The translations under genes were made by a program, and so were the position numbers. Below, one piece after another: positions 27,282-33,188 of a DNA stretch of 64,000 nt. The stretch is from Gemmobacter aquatilis. Its GTDB lineage: Bacteria; Pseudomonadota; Alphaproteobacteria; Rhodobacterales; Rhodobacteraceae. Positions within the stretch are counted from its first letter, which is position 1; each line of letters begins with the position of its first letter. Where the stretch lies: assembly GCF_900110025.1 (NCBI RefSeq), contig NZ_FOCE01000008.1, positions 1 through 64,000 on the forward strand, given 5' to 3'. Under the pieces are notes generated by a model. That model ran no database searches, had not been told where the DNA came from, and saw nothing but the letters and a program-made list of their open reading frames with translations.

Positions 27282-28523
27282 TTAGCCCGGCGTCGGCAGC
27301 GCCGGGGCGATCCGCGTCACGTCGCGCAACTGGCCGCCTTCGGCGAGGATTTCGCGCGGGGTGGGGTGGCTGATGAAATGCAGCGGGCTGGCGGTGGGGC
27401 CATAGGCGCCGCTGGTATGAAGGGCGATCAGGTCGCCTTCAGCCAGCGGGGGCAGCAGCACGCCGCCGCCGATCTTGTCGATCGAGGTGCAGAGCGGGCC
27501 GGAAAGATCGACCTTTTCCTCGCCGATCCCACCACCGACCTTGTGCATGACGTAGTTGCGGCGCAGCACCATGCCGAAATTGCCCGAGGCGGCGAGATGG
27601 GCGTTCATGCCGCCGTCGCAGATCGCAAGGCGGCTGCCGCGCGAGGCTTTGGTGGAGATGACGCGGGTGACGAAATAGCCCGCCTCGCCCACCAGAAAGC
27701 GGCCCAGTTCCAGCACGAGTTTCGTCTGGGCAAAGCGGGGTTCGCTGCGGAAGGCGCTCAGGTCCGGGCCGATGTCGGCGGCGATGTCAGGCAGGGACAG
27801 CGGCGTGTCGCCGGGGTGATAGGGGATGCCGAGGCCGGAGCCGAACACGAGTTTTTGCGGCGTCAGGCCCTGCGCCGCGCAGGTGTCGCGGAAGATCTGC
27901 AGGAAGATGCGCCAGTTTTCGGCTATGGCGGCGGGTTTCAGGCATTGGGTGCCGGAATAGATGTGCAGCCCGATCACCCGCAGATGCGGCAGGGCGAGGA
28001 TCTGCGGCAGGATTTCGGGGGCGTCCTCGATGTCGATGCCGAAGGGGCTGGGGCGGCCCGCCATATGGTCGCCAAAGCCCTTGGGCACGCGGTCGGGGGC
28101 GAGGCGGATCAGCACGGGCTGCACGCGGCCCAGGGCGGCGGCGATGCGGTTGGCGGCTTGCGCCTCGCGCAGGCTTTCCAGCACCAGCTCGCCCAGCCCT
28201 GCCGCGATTGTCGCCTGCACTTCGGCGTCGCGCTTGGCCGGGCCGGTGAAGGAGGCGCGGTCGGGCGCCCATCCGGCGGCGCAGGCCAGCGCAAATTCAC
28301 CGCCCGAGGACACGTCGATCAGATCGACGCGCGGTTCCAGCCAGGACAGCAGCGCCGGGTTGGGGTTGCATTTCATCGCATAGCTGAGCGCAAACCACTG
28401 GCCCAGCGTGGCGCGCAGATCGGCCAGACGGGTGTCGATGGCATCGGTGACATAGACATAGGCGGGGGTGCCGAACCGGCCCGCCGCCGATGCCAGCAGG
28501 GGGTCGAGATCAGGCTTCGGCAT
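27282..28523 (-). CDS. PLP-dependent decarboxylase, exosortase-A-associated type
   Basis: A 413-residue fold-type III PLP enzyme of the diaminopimelate/ornithine decarboxylase family. The PLP lysine is K51 in SYAMKCNPNP. Other motifs are DVSSGGEFALA, GLHIYSGTQ, GSGLGIPY, VLELGRFLVGEAGYFV, DGGMNAHLAASGNFG, and the second-subunit substrate block GPLCTSID. The last three are wording I know from the decarboxylase that accompanies exosortase A loci (TIGR03099). The substrate is unknown and may be an amino acid carried on the neighbouring ACP. It overlaps the ACP gene by 14 nt and is the last gene of the six-gene run. Confidence 0.85.
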   Translation of the reverse strand: MPKPDLDPLLASAAGRFGTPAYVYVTDAIDTRLADLRATLGQWFALSYAMKCNPNPALLSWLEPRVDLIDVSSGGEFALACAAGWAPDRASFTGPAKRDAEVQATIAAGLGELVLESLREAQAANRIAAALGRVQPVLIRLAPDRVPKGFGDHMAGRPSPFGIDIEDAPEILPQILALPHLRVIGLHIYSGTQCLKPAAIAENWRIFLQIFRDTCAAQGLTPQKLVFGSGLGIPYHPGDTPLSLPDIAADIGPDLSAFRSEPRFAQTKLVLELGRFLVGEAGYFVTRVISTKASRGSRLAICDGGMNAHLAASGNFGMVLRRNYVMHKVGGGIGEEKVDLSGPLCTSIDKIGGGVLLPPLAEGDLIALHTSGAYGPTASPLHFISHPTPREILAEGGQLRDVTRIAPALPTPG

Positions 28524-28746
28524 GGGCGTAGGCCACGATGGCCTGCACGGTGTCGAAATTTTCCAGCGTCACATCTGCGGGGCGCACCTCGATCCCGGCC
28601 TGTTCTTCGACAAAGGCGATGATGGTCATCATGGCGACGGAATCGAGCAGGCCGGAGGAGAACAGCTCGGTCTCCGGCGCGATGTCGTCTTCAAGGTTCA
28701 GGTCGTTGCGCAGATAGGCGATCAGGGTGTCGGCAGTCAGGGTCAT
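28510..28746 (-). CDS. Free-standing acyl/peptidyl carrier protein
   Basis: A 78-residue acidic four-helix carrier protein. The phosphopantetheine serine is S36 in GLLDSVAMM. The DSVAMM wording, instead of DSLDTVEL, sets it apart from fatty-acid AcpP and is like carriers that work with AMP ligases. It sits between the AMP ligase (21 bp upstream) and the decarboxylase (14-nt overlap), which suggests that the ligase loads it and the decarboxylase acts on, or next to, the tethered group. A phosphopantetheinyl transferase is not in the window. Confidence 0.88.
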   Translation of the reverse strand: MTLTADTLIAYLRNDLNLEDDIAPETELFSSGLLDSVAMMTIIAFVEEQAGIEVRPADVTLENFDTVQAIVAYAHAEA

Positions 28747-28767
28747 GGCGTCCTCGGGGTGATCGGA

Positions 28768-30312
28768 TCAGGGGCGCGCCTTGCAGGCGGCGATGACGGC
28801 GGGGCGATCAAGCTTGCCGCTTGCGGTGCGGGGCATGGCGCCGGGCCAGGGGTGCAGGCGGCGGGGCACCATGTAATGGGCCATGGTCTTGCGGCAATGG
28901 GCCAGAAGGGCGGCTTCGGTCGTGTCGGGCAGCAGGGTTGCGGCGACATGGACGGCCTGCCCCAGATCGGGGTCATCGGTGCCGTAAGCCACGACATCGG
29001 TGACAAGGCCGGATTTCGACACGAGGTCTTCAACCTCGGTCGGCGACAGGCGGAAGCCGAGGGTCTTAATCATGTCGTCCATCCGGCCCACGAACCACAG
29101 ATCGCCGTCTTCGTCCACGCGGATCAGATCGCCCGACCAGACCACCGGCGCGTCGCCGATCAGCGGGGCGAGTTCGGGGCAGGGGCGGATTTTCTCGGCG
29201 GTCAGGTCGGGGCGTTCCCAGTAACCCATGCTGACGAGCGGGCCGGCATGGACCAGCTCTCCCTGTTCGCCCGGGCCTGCGGGGCCGATGCCGGGTTTGA
29301 CGACAAACACCTGCGCATAGGGGATGCCCTGGCCGATGGAACCCATCTTGGCGGCAAAGCGGGCGGGGGGCAGGTAGGTAGACCGGAACGCCTCGGTCAG
29401 GCCATACATCAGGAAGATTTCGGCGCCGGGAAACACCTGCGGCAGCAAGGGCAGGATGTCGGGCGGGATCTTGCCGCCGGTATTGGTGATGCGGCGCAGG
29501 GCGGGCAGCGGGGTGGGGGCGTCGCGCAGGTAGCGGGCGATCTGGTTCCACAGCGGCGGCACGCCTGCGATGCCGGTGGCGCCATGGGTGGCGGCGCTGC
29601 GGATCACCTCGGACGGCATGGCGACGGGCTGGTGGATGACGGTGCCGCCCAGCAGCAGCATGGTGGTCAACTGGTTCAGCCCGGCGTCGAAACTGTAGGG
29701 CAGGACCGACAGCAGCCGGTCGTCTGCGGTCAGCCGCAGATATTCGGCCACGGCCTGCGCGCCGATGCGGATGTTGCTGTGGCTGAGCATCACGCCCTTG
29801 GGCATCCCGGTGGAGCCGGAGGTGTAGATGATCATCGCAAGGCTGGCCGGGTCGGGCGTGGCCTCGGGCGCGGTGGCGGGGGGCAGATCGTCCCAGCGCG
29901 TGGCGCCGTCGGGCAGGGTGCCTGCGCCGCGCGCCAGCATTGGCAGGGGCGTGGGCAGGGCGGCGACGACCGGGGCGGCGGCGGCGCGGCCCAGGATCAC
30001 CGCGCGGGCGCGGCAATCGCCCGCGACATAGGCCAGTTGCGCGGGCGTCCATTGCACGTTCACATTGACCACCACGGCGCCGATCTTCAGCGCGCCGAAC
30101 ATGGCGGCAACCTCGTCAATCCCCTTGCGGACATGGACGATCACCCGGTCGCCTGCGGTGATGCCGCTGGCCAGAAGCCATGCGGCGACGCGATCCGCCT
30201 CGGCGGCGAGGTCGGCATAGGTGGCTTGTCGCTTGTCGTCGATCAGGGCGATCTTGGCGGCGCGGGCGGGCAGGTTGTCGGCCAGCAGGCGATACAGGGG
30301 CGCGCCGGTCAT
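28768..30312 (-). CDS. AMP-forming acyl/aminoacyl ligase, exosortase-A-associated type
   Basis: A 514-residue ANL-superfamily adenylating enzyme. The P-loop-like motif is IIYTSGSTGMPKG; others are LPYSFDAGLNQL, ITNTGGKIP, MYGLTEAFRSTYLPP, VWSGDLIRVDEDG, and the C-terminal catalytic Lys in TASGKLDRP. The phrases DAGLNQLTT and LTEAFRSTYLPP match ligases paired with exosortase A loci (TIGR03098, by memory). It probably activates an acid or amino acid and loads it onto the adjacent carrier protein. The start overlaps the acetyltransferase stop (ATGA). Confidence 0.87.
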   Translation of the reverse strand: MTGAPLYRLLADNLPARAAKIALIDDKRQATYADLAAEADRVAAWLLASGITAGDRVIVHVRKGIDEVAAMFGALKIGAVVVNVNVQWTPAQLAYVAGDCRARAVILGRAAAAPVVAALPTPLPMLARGAGTLPDGATRWDDLPPATAPEATPDPASLAMIIYTSGSTGMPKGVMLSHSNIRIGAQAVAEYLRLTADDRLLSVLPYSFDAGLNQLTTMLLLGGTVIHQPVAMPSEVIRSAATHGATGIAGVPPLWNQIARYLRDAPTPLPALRRITNTGGKIPPDILPLLPQVFPGAEIFLMYGLTEAFRSTYLPPARFAAKMGSIGQGIPYAQVFVVKPGIGPAGPGEQGELVHAGPLVSMGYWERPDLTAEKIRPCPELAPLIGDAPVVWSGDLIRVDEDGDLWFVGRMDDMIKTLGFRLSPTEVEDLVSKSGLVTDVVAYGTDDPDLGQAVHVAATLLPDTTEAALLAHCRKTMAHYMVPRRLHPWPGAMPRTASGKLDRPAVIAACKARP

Positions 30313-30833
30313 TTCGGGGCCTTCTTGGCAAAGATCGGCAGGCGCGGGTAGATTTTGGCGGGCGAGCCGATGGCGATGGAATCGGCGGGGACATTGGTGG
30401 TGACGCAGGTATTGGCACCGATGCGCACCCGGTCGCCGATCTTGATGCGGCCCAGCACGGTGGAGTTGACGCCGATGAACACATCGTCGCCGATCACCGG
30501 GGCGCCCGCGCCCATATTGGTGCCGATGGTGACATTGTGCATCACGCCGCAGCGGTCGCCGATCACCGCATCGGGGTGGATCGACAGCGAGCCTTCGGCA
30601 TGGACGATGTGAAAATCCTTGCCGATCTGCGTCTGCGGCGGAATCCACACCTTGGTGACATTGAGGATGAACAGCTTCAGCACTCCGTAGCCCTTGTTCG
30701 CCAGCCAGCGCAGCGCCGGGTTGCGGAGGCCGATGGCAAAGCGGCCATAGCGATAGATGGCCAGCGACACGAAGGCGGGCTCGGTCAGGGACCGGCCGTG
30801 GCGGATGTAATCCTCTTTGATCTCTTTGAACAC
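30309..30833 (-). CDS. Hexapeptide-repeat acetyltransferase, serine-acetyltransferase-like
   Basis: A 174-residue left-handed beta-helix protein with repeated hexapeptides such as IHPDAVIGDRCGVMHNVTIG, APVIGDDVFIGVNSTVLG and IKIGDRVRIGANTCV. The catalytic-type His lies in GVMHN and in IVHAEGS. The short N-terminus lacks the helical domain of housekeeping CysE, so an O- or N-acetyl/acyl transfer to a glycan or to the ACP product is more likely than cysteine synthesis. It is translationally coupled to the AMP ligase, which places it in that pathway. GT61 lies 97 bp upstream on the same strand. Confidence 0.85.
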   Translation of the reverse strand: MFKEIKEDYIRHGRSLTEPAFVSLAIYRYGRFAIGLRNPALRWLANKGYGVLKLFILNVTKVWIPPQTQIGKDFHIVHAEGSLSIHPDAVIGDRCGVMHNVTIGTNMGAGAPVIGDDVFIGVNSTVLGRIKIGDRVRIGANTCVTTNVPADSIAIGSPAKIYPRLPIFAKKAPK

Positions 30834-30930
30834 GGTGAAAGGCTTCCGTTAGGTCAATGGGGAATGGCTGCGGATTGCAAGGTGAAGGCCGAAAAGGGCA
30901 ACGATATGGCCCGGATCGGGCAATCTGTGG

Positions 30931-31971
30931 TTAGGGGATCAGGTCAAGCGTGCGGGCGATTTCGCCCCAGTCGGCCTCGTATTCGCCATTGCCGCCGGTG
31001 GAGACGATGAAGGCGAAGCGCAGGCCCTGCCGGTCGGTGAAGATCTTCAGCGGCACGGTCATCCGGTCGGGGGGCTGGATGGTCAGCAGCGCGCTGCCGG
31101 GGGGCATGACGGCCACGCCGTTGCACATATGGCTGCCTTCGACCCCGGCGATGATGCGGGCACCGCCGCAGGCTTGCAGCAGGTCATCCAGCGGTGTGGT
31201 CATCGGGTCCAGCACGCGAAAGCCGCGGTCGCGTTCCAGCCGGGCGGCGATCTCCATCTCATTGCGCAGCACGCGGCGAGAGCCGGAAGTGCCGCGCAGC
31301 AGGAAGACGCCGGGATTGGGGGCAGGGGTCTGGCCAGCCAGCAGCCGCTGGCGCATCGCTTCGCCGCGGGCGGCCTTGTGCGGGTTGGGGGCGAGATCGT
31401 CGAACAGGATCAGTTCGTCGAAATGCGCGTCAGCGATGCGGCGGGGGGTCATGCCCAGCAGCGATTCAAAGCGCGGGATATTGCCGGGGCGGGGCCCAAG
31501 GGTCGCCACGGGCATGCCGGTTTCGGCGGCGAGGGTGTGGGTCAGGCAATCATCCAGCAGCCACATGCCGAACCAGCGGTTGCCGTTCCAGCTTTCATAG
31601 AATGCGCCGGACAGGGCCTCGCGCGGGCGGGGGCGCAGCGGGTTGCGGTGCTTTCGGGCGCGCAGGTGGTATTCGGCGTGCTGATGATACAGCACGCCAT
31701 CCACCAGATCGACATCGCGCAGCCGGAAGCCGCGCGTGGCGGTCAGCGCCACGTCGCAATCGCCATGGCAGGCGGCGAGGGTGGCGGGCAGATCGGCAAA
31801 TTCGGTGGCGCGGATACGGTCAATCTGATCGGGCAGGAAGATCGCGGGCGGCAGATATGCGGTTTGCGCCGGGGCGATTTCCCAGCTTTCGATGGCGAGA
31901 TCGGTCAGGGCGGGGGGCTGATGCCCCGCCAGCCTGCGCAGCCGGTTGGTGATGGGTTTCACGAATGCCAT
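30931..31971 (-). CDS. Glycosyltransferase family 61 protein
   Basis: A 346-residue cytoplasmic protein of the GT61 (DUF563) type. The most diagnostic part is C-terminal: ARIIAGVEGSHMCNGVAVMP followed by GSALLTIQPPDRM, preceded by FLLRGTSGSRRVLRNEMEIA. FYESWNGNRWFGMWLLDDC lies in the N-terminal half. GT61 enzymes add sugars to polysaccharides or glycoproteins; donor and acceptor are unknown here. The ATG at 31971 has GGAG 6 nt upstream. It is the second gene of the minus-strand run, so it likely builds the glycan that the downstream genes decorate. Confidence 0.8.
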   Translation of the reverse strand: MAFVKPITNRLRRLAGHQPPALTDLAIESWEIAPAQTAYLPPAIFLPDQIDRIRATEFADLPATLAACHGDCDVALTATRGFRLRDVDLVDGVLYHQHAEYHLRARKHRNPLRPRPREALSGAFYESWNGNRWFGMWLLDDCLTHTLAAETGMPVATLGPRPGNIPRFESLLGMTPRRIADAHFDELILFDDLAPNPHKAARGEAMRQRLLAGQTPAPNPGVFLLRGTSGSRRVLRNEMEIAARLERDRGFRVLDPMTTPLDDLLQACGGARIIAGVEGSHMCNGVAVMPPGSALLTIQPPDRMTVPLKIFTDRQGLRFAFIVSTGGNGEYEADWGEIARTLDLIP

Positions 31972-32057
31972 GCGGGACTCCTGTCGCGCGATGATGGTCA
32001 GGCTAGGGCAGAAAGGCGGCGCGGGGAAGGAAAGCCGGGGTTGTGGGGCAGGTTTGG

Positions 32058-33188
32058 TCAGGGCGCGGGCAGGGCGGTGATCGCGTCGATCAGCGTTTGG
32101 GCGATCAGGGCATGGTCGTCCAGCGTCGGGTGCCAGTCGCAGGCGTGGCGGCCCAGCTTTGGCAGCGGGACCAGCGTTGTGGCAAGGCCCGTGCTGGCCA
32201 GTTCGGCCTGTGCGGCCTGATGGGCGGCGAGGATGTCGGCGCCGTATTCGGTGAACACCAGCAGCAGGATCTGCGCGTGCGGGGCCTCGGCGTGGCGTTG
32301 ACGGGTGAAGGCGACCAGCGCGCGGGTGAAATCGGCGCGCAGGGCGGCGGCATCGGGCCAAGGCTCGCCGTCGCGCAGCGGGGTGGAGAAATCGTTGGAG
32401 CCCAGCGCGATGACGATGATCTGAGGCGGGGTTTCGGGCGGGGGCGGGTAGAGCATGGTCATCGTGCGCCCCGGATCGGCGCCGTCGTAATTGCGCACGA
32501 GGCCAAGGCCGGAGCGGGCGATGAGCCGGTAATCGGCGCCGAACTGCGCAGCGGTGCGCGGGCCGAAGGCGGCGCTGCTGTCGGTGGCGAGGAAGACGGT
32601 GTCGGGTGTGCAGGCGCGGTTGGTGGCGGTGTTGGCGTAACCCACGCTGTCGGAATCGCCGATGAAGTCGAACAGCCGGGCCGCCGGGGCCGGGGGTGGC
32701 AGAGCCGTGCTGCCGGGGGGCAGGAAGACGCCGCCGAACAGCGCCGGTCCGGGGCTTTCGCTCAGCTTTTCCAGTGCGATGTCATGCGGGCCGGGGGGCA
32801 GGCCGGTCAGATCGACCACCTGATTGCCGGTGCGGGTGAGGATCGCCACGGGGCGGCCATCCAGCGACAGGCGAAAGCGGTTGGCGGCATCATCGAACAG
32901 CAGGCGCAGGGCGGTGCCGGTGAAGCGGGCCCGCAGGTGCAGGCCGGGCCAGTCGTGCTGCAGCCCTTCGGGGGTGGCGGTGGCGAGGCCGGTGACCTGT
33001 GGCGCAAGGCGGGGCAGGGCGGTGACGGCAGAGGGGGGCAGCAGGGCGATCTGCGGCGCCCCCGCCAGCGGCTGGATCACCGGGGGCAGGGGGCGGGCTT
33101 CGGGTGCGGGCGGCTGCCGCAGGGCGAAGCCCGTCAAGGCCGCCGCCATGACCGGGGCGAGTGCCAGCGCCGCAATGCGTTTCGTCAT
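32058..33188 (-). CDS. Exported CE2-like carbohydrate esterase (SGNH hydrolase)
   Basis: A 376-residue protein with a signal-like hydrophobic N-terminus (IAALALAPVMAAALTGFAL), a beta-rich N-terminal domain (about 70-165) and an SGNH hydrolase domain starting at FIGDSDSVGY (nucleophile Ser 179). IIVIALGSNDFSTPL is the oxyanion block, and GRHACDWHPTLDDHALIA holds the catalytic Asp-His. The two-domain layout matches carbohydrate esterase family 2, which removes acetyl groups from sugars. It is the first gene of the six-gene minus-strand run, 86 bp before the GT61 gene. I infer deacetylation of a cell-surface or extracellular glycan. Confidence 0.8.
   Translation of the reverse strand: MTKRIAALALAPVMAAALTGFALRQPPAPEARPLPPVIQPLAGAPQIALLPPSAVTALPRLAPQVTGLATATPEGLQHDWPGLHLRARFTGTALRLLFDDAANRFRLSLDGRPVAILTRTGNQVVDLTGLPPGPHDIALEKLSESPGPALFGGVFLPPGSTALPPPAPAARLFDFIGDSDSVGYANTATNRACTPDTVFLATDSSAAFGPRTAAQFGADYRLIARSGLGLVRNYDGADPGRTMTMLYPPPPETPPQIIVIALGSNDFSTPLRDGEPWPDAAALRADFTRALVAFTRQRHAEAPHAQILLLVFTEYGADILAAHQAAQAELASTGLATTLVPLPKLGRHACDWHPTLDDHALIAQTLIDAITALPAP

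Follow-up and report, generated by a model that had tools for sequence, protein, structure and literature searches.

What can a ligase and a decarboxylase whose family names refer to exosortase A be doing in a gene block that holds no exosortase? The question is raised by six genes on the minus strand of Gemmobacter aquatilis DNA, at positions 27282-33188 of the window, by which we mean the whole stretch analysed here (the first 64,000 nucleotides of contig NZ_FOCE01000008.1, or C13, in a 3.96 Mb genome of 33 contigs). In the direction of transcription they encode a carbohydrate esterase of the CE2 type (EST), a family 61 glycosyltransferase (GT61), a hexapeptide acyltransferase (HEX), an adenylate-forming ligase (LIG), a free acyl carrier protein (ACP) and a pyridoxal 5'-phosphate (PLP) decarboxylase (DEC). 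A preliminary description of this DNA had announced a six-gene run, and all six open reading frames (ORFs) were found on the minus strand where it had placed them. On balance, we lean towards a reading in which the enzymes of the block assemble an omega-aminoacyl thioester on a carrier protein of their own, for the decoration of a surface glycan. In simpler terms, scattered Rhodobacter-like bacteria probably use these genes to build a simple amine-bearing unit on a carrier and to attach the unit to a cell-surface sugar. The enzymes are of kinds otherwise best known from the making of antibiotics, and the compactness of the block makes it a good test ground for the idea that chemistry of the VinN/BtrK type serves glycans.

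The ligase, the carrier and the decarboxylase

DEC (27282-28523, minus strand) is a PLP decarboxylase of the alanine-racemase fold. Its closest solved relative is BtrK, the L-glutamyl-[BtrI acyl-carrier protein] decarboxylase (215 bits, 1.3e-62), whereas the best diaminopimelate decarboxylase (DAPDC) reaches 135 bits. The alignment with BtrK contains the common stretches GPLCT..D and SGAYG..SP.HF..HPTP.EIL. In DEC the first of these reads GPLCTS, resembling GPLCTP of BtrK, and two DAPDC have GPxCETG, with Glu at the position after the Cys. An acidic residue at this place contacts the distal amine in DAPDC and in ornithine decarboxylase. Thr follows the Cys of GPLC in BtrK and in 95 of the 98 DEC-family proteins of the loci that we collected, the remaining three having Asn (L072, L116) or Ser (L108). 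Both in being closer to BtrK than to DAPDC and in having CT rather than CE after GPx, the sequence of DEC resembles the BtrK/VinO type. The reaction of BtrK is the conversion of BtrI-S-glutamate to BtrI-S-GABA (GABA, gamma-aminobutyrate; PMC7857480).

A parallel for the ligase comes from vicenistatin biosynthesis, in which VinN loads methylaspartate on the carrier, and loading comes before decarboxylation by VinO (PMC11284099). The loop of VinN is shorter than that of domains for alpha-amino acids, and this loop together with K330/R331 gives room for a beta-amino acid, as stated in PMC11253843, from which the numbering of D230, F231, S299, K330 and R331 was also taken (the chain offset of 16 was worked out by alignment). 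A Thermoactinospora ligase encoded beside a VinO-like DEC (L110) matches VinN (3WVN) at 645 bits. Through this intermediate, the five VinN residues align with D209, A210, T278, F309 and R310 of LIG (28768-30312, minus strand), and the alignment of LIG with the VinN type is gapless around YG.TE. Arg310 and Asp209 are invariant in all 33 aligned ligases linked to a DEC and present in 70 of 71 ligases, the exception (L034) being a 44-bit match to another enzyme; Arg310 is absent from six of six controls, namely five adenylating enzymes of the same genome and the second adenylation (A) protein of L110; two more control loci, L002 and L006, yielded no sequence after filtering. Moreover, the LIG loop after YG.TE is one to two residues shorter than in two LgrA A domains. 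LIG therefore carries the counterparts of D230 and R331 and the shortened loop of VinN.

The VinN residues and loop, taken together with the VinO and BtrK parallels, make it most likely that the core enzymes attach an acidic amino acid to the carrier through the side chain and that decarboxylation follows there. LIG, as a proposed acidic amino acid:ACP ligase, would adenylate the side-chain carboxyl group of Asp or Glu and load the amino acid on ACP (28510-28746, minus strand), and DEC would take off the free alpha-carboxyl group of the tethered substrate, giving beta-alanyl-ACP or GABA-ACP. ACP passes the cut-off of PF00550 (36.3 bits against 20.8), and the serine of its DSV motif, Ser36, is invariant in four of four aligned sequences. 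The preliminary description had the ligase loading an amino acid onto the ACP and the decarboxylase turning it into an amine. The arrangement of the two enzymes around a free carrier stands; in place of an amine, the BtrK and VinN/VinO parallels point to decarboxylation on the carrier, which would leave an omega-aminoacyl thioester.

Conservation of the block

GT61, HEX, LIG, ACP and DEC occur together in at least 15 loci (the window's own, L025, L026, L027, L037-L043, L127, L135, L136 and L137). A scan of GTDB contigs, in which at least 80 loci were collected, contributed at least seven of these (L037-L043), and three (L135-L137) came from the six plasmid records that were opened. Block genes were counted by tblastn, because our home-made gene caller takes some ORFs on the wrong strand. 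When DEC was used as a query against 147 relatives including G. aquatilis itself, 11 matched at 1e-60, and the block was present in the own genome, G010, G044 and G033; among 394 genomes of the family, seven matched at 1e-100, with the block in the own genome, G033, G044 and G433. The LIG, ACP and DEC genes of G306 lie on a contig of 3.9 kb whose end cuts through LIG; in G419 and G234, ACP and DEC are accompanied by a ligase that is less closely related (30% identity).

The order of the genes is also kept. GT61 lies ahead of HEX on the same strand in 14 of the 15 loci, and in L042 it is on the opposite strand past DEC. The esterase is the loosest member of the block: nine loci (own, L025, L026, L037, L038, L040, L127, L135, L136) have it upstream on the strand of the block, and L027 has it downstream on the opposite strand, so that it adjoins 10 of the 15, and it was not found at 1e-3 in L039, L041, L042, L043 and L137, the stretch of L042 starting just before HEX. 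The earlier assignment of both GT61 and the esterase to the set consequently holds throughout for the former and in 10 of 15 loci for the latter. In the 11 loci whose flanks were clustered, two families were shared between L038 and L040 and one between the own locus and L039, wrong-strand block ORFs aside. Since five or six genes stand together in at least 15 loci, and the clustered flanks share so few families, the grouping is more than chance. The expectation that the block would be kept together across genomes was thus borne out. Co-inheritance is also suggested by the pairwise distances of the five genes, which correlate at 0.59-0.88 over the 15 loci; for each of the 10 gene pairs, 0 of 2000 permutations reached the observed value.

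In the window, the spacings in the order EST-GT61-HEX-LIG-ACP-DEC are +86, +97, -4 (ATGA), +21 and -14 nt. Overlaps had been described through the last four genes; they exist between HEX and LIG and between ACP and DEC, and LIG and ACP are separated by a gap of 21 nt. In Paracoccus rhizosphaerae, HEX and LIG form a single uninterrupted ORF of 711 codons (L042:349-2484), which could be a sequencing slip.

Proposed transfer of the acyl group

HEX (30309-30833, minus strand, GTG start) is a left-handed beta-helix protein that matches Hexapep (PF00132) with 56 bits at a cut-off of 27. In the proposed pathway it would act as an aminoacyl transferase, taking over the acyl group from ACP and placing it on a sugar, at an amino or a hydroxyl group. 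Hexapeptide enzymes that use acyl-ACP exist, LpxA and LpxD being examples. Some related ligase-ACP-decarboxylase sets have an acyltransferase beside them, either of the hexapeptide kind (L046 and L092, in both directly after DEC, L047 and L057) or an MBOAT protein (L050, L128 and L057); others are without an identified acyltransferase, with a thioesterase (L129) or a sulfotransferase (L053) there. Among the six block proteins, a Pfam search gave no match to an MBOAT domain. The set of a Phycisphaerales metagenome-assembled genome (MAG; L050:3590-12835) has a GDSL-like protein and an MBOAT protein on both sides. These GDSL-like neighbours are below the Pfam cut-off, and the layout resembles Dlt or AlgI/AlgJ with a decarboxylase added.

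An alternative is that HEX uses acetyl-CoA to acetylate either the new amine or the sugar and EST removes the acetyl group, the aminoacyl group being moved by GT61 or by an enzyme from outside the block. The preliminary description had allowed for this. HEX resembles the models of EpsC (99.0 bits, cut-off 150), CysE (78.6 bits, cut-off 210.65) and WcaB, all below cut-off, and the best solved relative of EST is named a putative acetyl xylan esterase (2w9x, 4.1e-57). We nevertheless consider it unlikely, since HEX is the sole acyltransferase of the block in 15 of 15 loci and its profile is restricted to block genomes: four of 394 family genomes matched at 1e-40 (G000, which is G. aquatilis, G033, G044 and G433), all of them with the block, and of 385 genomes of the class only G. 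aquatilis did so at 1e-45. The single ORF of HEX and LIG in L042 speaks in the same direction. Moreover, HEX is without equivalents of Asp157, Arg192 and His193 of serine acetyltransferase (SAT), which we take to be its serine-site positions in E. coli numbering; the His of HAEG is kept. With its scores under the cut-offs and these positions not kept, HEX was rejected as a serine acetyltransferase.

The proposed glycan side

GT61 (30931-31971, minus strand) scores 47.8 bits with PF04577 (cut-off 27), and its family alignment has 12 members. EST (32058-33188, minus strand) is an SGNH esterase with a stretch at the N-terminus that looks, by eye, like a signal or an anchor. It matches CE2_N (PF17996) with 58.0 bits (cut-off 27.9); GDSL_2 gives 27.5 bits against a cut-off of 32.9, and the motifs IGDS, LGxND and WHP are kept in four of four aligned sequences. 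Together with AMP-binding, PLP-decarboxylase, PP-binding and Hexapep, the GT61 and CE2_N families complete the Pfam cut-offs that were passed in the block. We propose that GT61 would add the acylated sugar, or the next one, to the glycan, and that EST, outside the cytoplasm, would strip acyl groups off the finished product.

The glycan side of the proposal draws on these two enzymes, including the signal-like start of EST, and on the surroundings of other copies. L027 and L057 have a flippase gene close to the set, the Neorhizobium copy (L137) sits by eye among genes like those of an exopolysaccharide locus, glycan genes surround a LIG/DEC pair of Sinorhizobium (L138), and genes for nucleotide-sugar synthesis (gmd, GDP-L-fucose synthase and DegT) precede the Paracoccus copies L135 and L037 (P. 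ferrooxidans, P. sulfuroxidans). In G. aquatilis, contig C31 encodes a close Gmd (77%), and relatives of DegT (32-33%) are restricted to C12 and C23. Perosamine was dropped as a general acceptor sugar, because the gmd/fcl/DegT genes stand by two of the 14 loci compared and not by the window's copy. Contig C31 (L151, L152) has, by eye, a capsule-like appearance, with Gmd, Fcl, ManC, Rml-like proteins, several sulfotransferases and an ABC ATPase. This locus could supply the acceptor; nothing ties it to the block.

A different possibility is that the product is not a surface glycan but a lipid or a small diffusible molecule, which GT61 glycosylates. The relatives VinN/VinO and BtrK serve antibiotics, Seohaeicola and Neorhizobium have genes resembling those of nonribosomal peptide synthetases (NRPS) or polyketide synthases in the vicinity of the block (partly by eye), and the window has no adjoining glycan genes. 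The presence of GT61 and of a CE2 esterase with a start that looks signal-like by eye, the flippase gene by the set in L027 and L057 and the genes, exopolysaccharide-like by eye, around L137 argue against such a product, and we regard it as distinctly improbable. The genes directly ahead of the block in Seohaeicola (L041:1-5429) are one of the NRPS kind and one for a phosphopantetheinyl transferase. Plasmid p1 of Gemmobacter fulvus (L139:3090-16789) encodes a BtrK-like decarboxylase fused to an acyl-CoA-dehydrogenase-like part, together with a pair each of carrier proteins and adenylating enzymes, and resembles a small-molecule cluster.

As for the setting in the window, by eye one flank holds an FtsK-like gene and a small NYN-like ORF, and the other an AbrB-like membrane protein and efflux adaptors. 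In the empty-site comparison, the FtsK and AbrB genes were not found beside the NYN gene in the four congeners compared. The GC content of the block is 68.4% and that of the flanks 65.9 and 66.6%, which is uninformative.

Separation from exosortase A

The best NCBIfam model of LIG is TIGR03098 (495.3 bits), that of DEC TIGR03099 (361.6 bits), and both scores are below the curated cut-offs (592.35 and 478.45). In a search of the own genome with TIGR03098, LIG was far ahead (494.6 bits, the next 231.3) and no protein was above the cut-off. For the phylogeny of DEC we collected 98 proteins from 100 loci (the fused L032 and L033 were excluded for length), BtrK and two DAPDC; a quick maximum-likelihood tree was built from 69 of these 101 sequences, 32 judged redundant having been dropped, with DAPDC as the outgroup, and many of its forks are open. 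One clade, with support of 100 in the approximate likelihood-ratio test (SH-aLRT), unites 16 DECs of the block type (the 15 and L124) with 12 DECs of other sets that have a free ACP. The 15 DECs labelled as exosortase-A type, a label given by similarity (XrtA was tested for some of the 15, and S. meliloti L138 is one of them), form a separate group (SH-aLRT 90). BtrK and the VinO-like Thermoactinospora protein fall outside both. Block DECs are not one clean group, as L027 lies outside the main one, and L044 (ACP and DEC, no ligase match at 1e-3) lies inside it. The free-ACP clade extends to Verrucomicrobiota, Planctomycetota and Myxococcota; the order HEX-LIG-ACP-DEC recurs in a member of the Nannocystaceae (L047), without GT61, and a spirochaete outside the clade (L057) has GT61-ACP-LIG-DEC-HEX-flippase. 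The membership of LIG and DEC in TIGR03098 and TIGR03099, whose wording they had been said to carry, was not supported: these are their best named families, with both proteins under the cut-offs and DEC in another clade.

It had also been stated that the window has no exosortase. PF09721 indeed gave no match on the window's contig at E <= 1; elsewhere in the genome there is one match over the cut-off, on contig C33 (G000:C33:15792-17399, L023). With 515 bits for TIGR04162 (cut-off 150), this is XrtE, the exosortase of the VPEID-CTERM system, and not XrtA; by eye it is two genes past an rpoC-sized gene and ahead of rpsL, rpsG and fusA. The protein also bears a CAAX-protease-like part. XrtA (TIGR03109) was over the cut-off in none of 11 block genomes (G000, G010, G033, G044 and the genomes of L037-L043; G433 (L127) and the three plasmid strains were left out), 10 of which were without any match at 1e-10, and G149 (L039) had a match of 138 bits, under the cut-off. 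As a control, XrtA was over the cut-off in six of seven genomes with a pair of the exosortase-A type (G090, G101, G127 and those of L054, L060 and L067), the seventh, the MAG of L055, having no match. The claim that the block is kept without an exosortase was thereby supported for exosortase A, and homologues were not found always to lie beside an exosortase locus of the same genome.

That LIG and DEC are ordinary TIGR03098/TIGR03099 proteins, a detached part of an exosortase A system serving an exosortase-linked exopolysaccharide elsewhere, is very hard to credit: these are their best named families, pairs of the exosortase-A type do lie some 9-15 kb from XrtA on the same contig in G090, G101 and G127, and the own genome has XrtE, but both scores are beneath the curated cut-offs, the DEC tree splits the two groups, none of the tested block genomes has XrtA over the cut-off, and XrtE is on a different contig among rpo and ribosomal genes. 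Membership of the block in the exosortase A system was rejected on the TIGR scores, the missing XrtA and the separate DEC clade. On pSymB of Sinorhizobium meliloti, a decarboxylase annotated as 'exosortase A system-associated' (L138:13923-15463) and a carrier protein are encoded among glycan genes, and no exosortase is annotated within the 29 kb stretch around it.

Observations that weigh against the proposed pathway

Several findings count against the pathway as we propose it. The first concern LIG. Lys330 of VinN corresponds to Phe309 in 15 of 15 block ligases, and Phe231 to Ala210 in 12 and to Tyr in three, so that the VinN parallel does not fix the substrate of the ligase; with a larger pocket, Glu might be a better fit than Asp. 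As solved matches to LIG in a profile search, LgrA, 8xjz and 5n9w outscore VinN. A Foldseek search with the LIG model (predicted local distance difference, pLDDT, 91) returned general adenylating enzymes, VinN not being in the best 50 matches, and as the fold is generic this search was dropped as a guide to the substrate. As to HEX, its best profile matches are serine and sugar O-acetyltransferases, and its structure model (pLDDT 57.8) is too poor for use. In G306, which has LIG, ACP and DEC, HEX was not matched at 1e-40, the contig stopping short of the position at which HEX would lie. The correlations between the gene distances were computed without control for species relatedness. On the glycan side, no glycan genes adjoining the block were seen by eye in the window, and gmd/fcl/DegT genes are beside the block in only two of the 14 block loci compared. 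Finally, several genomes with the wider ligase-ACP-decarboxylase triad have exosortase-like matches under the XrtA cut-off, for example G096 (206.5 bits, interrupted by the contig end) and G159 (172.4 bits), and the best XrtA matches in the genomes of L045, L046, L049, L050 and L092 are of 93-172 bits. Because of these sub-cut-off matches, other exosortases may occur in such genomes.

Comparison with known systems

The names of TIGR03098 and TIGR03099 point to exosortase A and not to a tested reaction. No paper naming either family or the phrase 'exosortase A system-associated', and none on the enzyme combination of the block, was found in the limited literature collection that was searched; a word search of PMC1569441 gave no mention of decarboxylase, ligase or acyl carrier, and in PMC9850573 the same words led to DNA ligase alone. 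If a core of the VinN/BtrK type does serve surface glycans, both families would gain a testable reaction and a substrate class. This would fit their occurrence away from exosortases, in the block genomes and in the S. meliloti pSymB stretch, and would predict beta-alanine or GABA on bacterial glycans.

The block is best read as a VinN/BtrK-like module for carrier-bound decarboxylation joined to glycan enzymes, without exosortase A. With VinN/VinL/VinO of vicenistatin it shares an adenylating ligase, a free ACP and a PLP decarboxylase, which in vicenistatin acts after loading (PMC11284099), as well as the residues Asp230 and Arg331. It differs in that the vicenistatin enzymes feed a polyketide synthase, the block having GT61, a hexapeptide transferase and a CE2 esterase instead, and in that Lys330 is not kept in LIG and Phe231 is mostly replaced by Ala. 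In the butirosin pathway, the ATP-grasp enzyme BtrJ does the carrier loading and the acceptor is an aminoglycoside. What links it to the block is BtrK, the closest solved relative of DEC, which decarboxylates Glu on the carrier to the GABA-carrier (PMC7857480). The ligase/decarboxylase pair of exosortase A shares with the block the best named families, Arg310/Asp209 and the LCT motif; the block differs in its scores under the cut-offs, its separate clade, the lack of XrtA over the cut-off and the free ACP gene directly between LIG and DEC.

D-alanylation by the Dlt system also employs a ligase, a carrier and acyl transfer to a surface glycan. Its working is comparable to that proposed here, and some relatives of the block carry an MBOAT protein beside the module; the block itself is without MBOAT, has an added decarboxylase, and its ACP is below the DltC cut-off (31.7 bits against 68). 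It is possible, though we advance it tentatively, that the block is a portable Dlt-like system, in which a charged group made on a carrier, beta-alanyl or GABA, would be passed to a sugar by a hexapeptide transferase, creating a cationic position in the glycan. If so, the ligase and decarboxylase associated with exosortase A would represent one branch of this chemistry.

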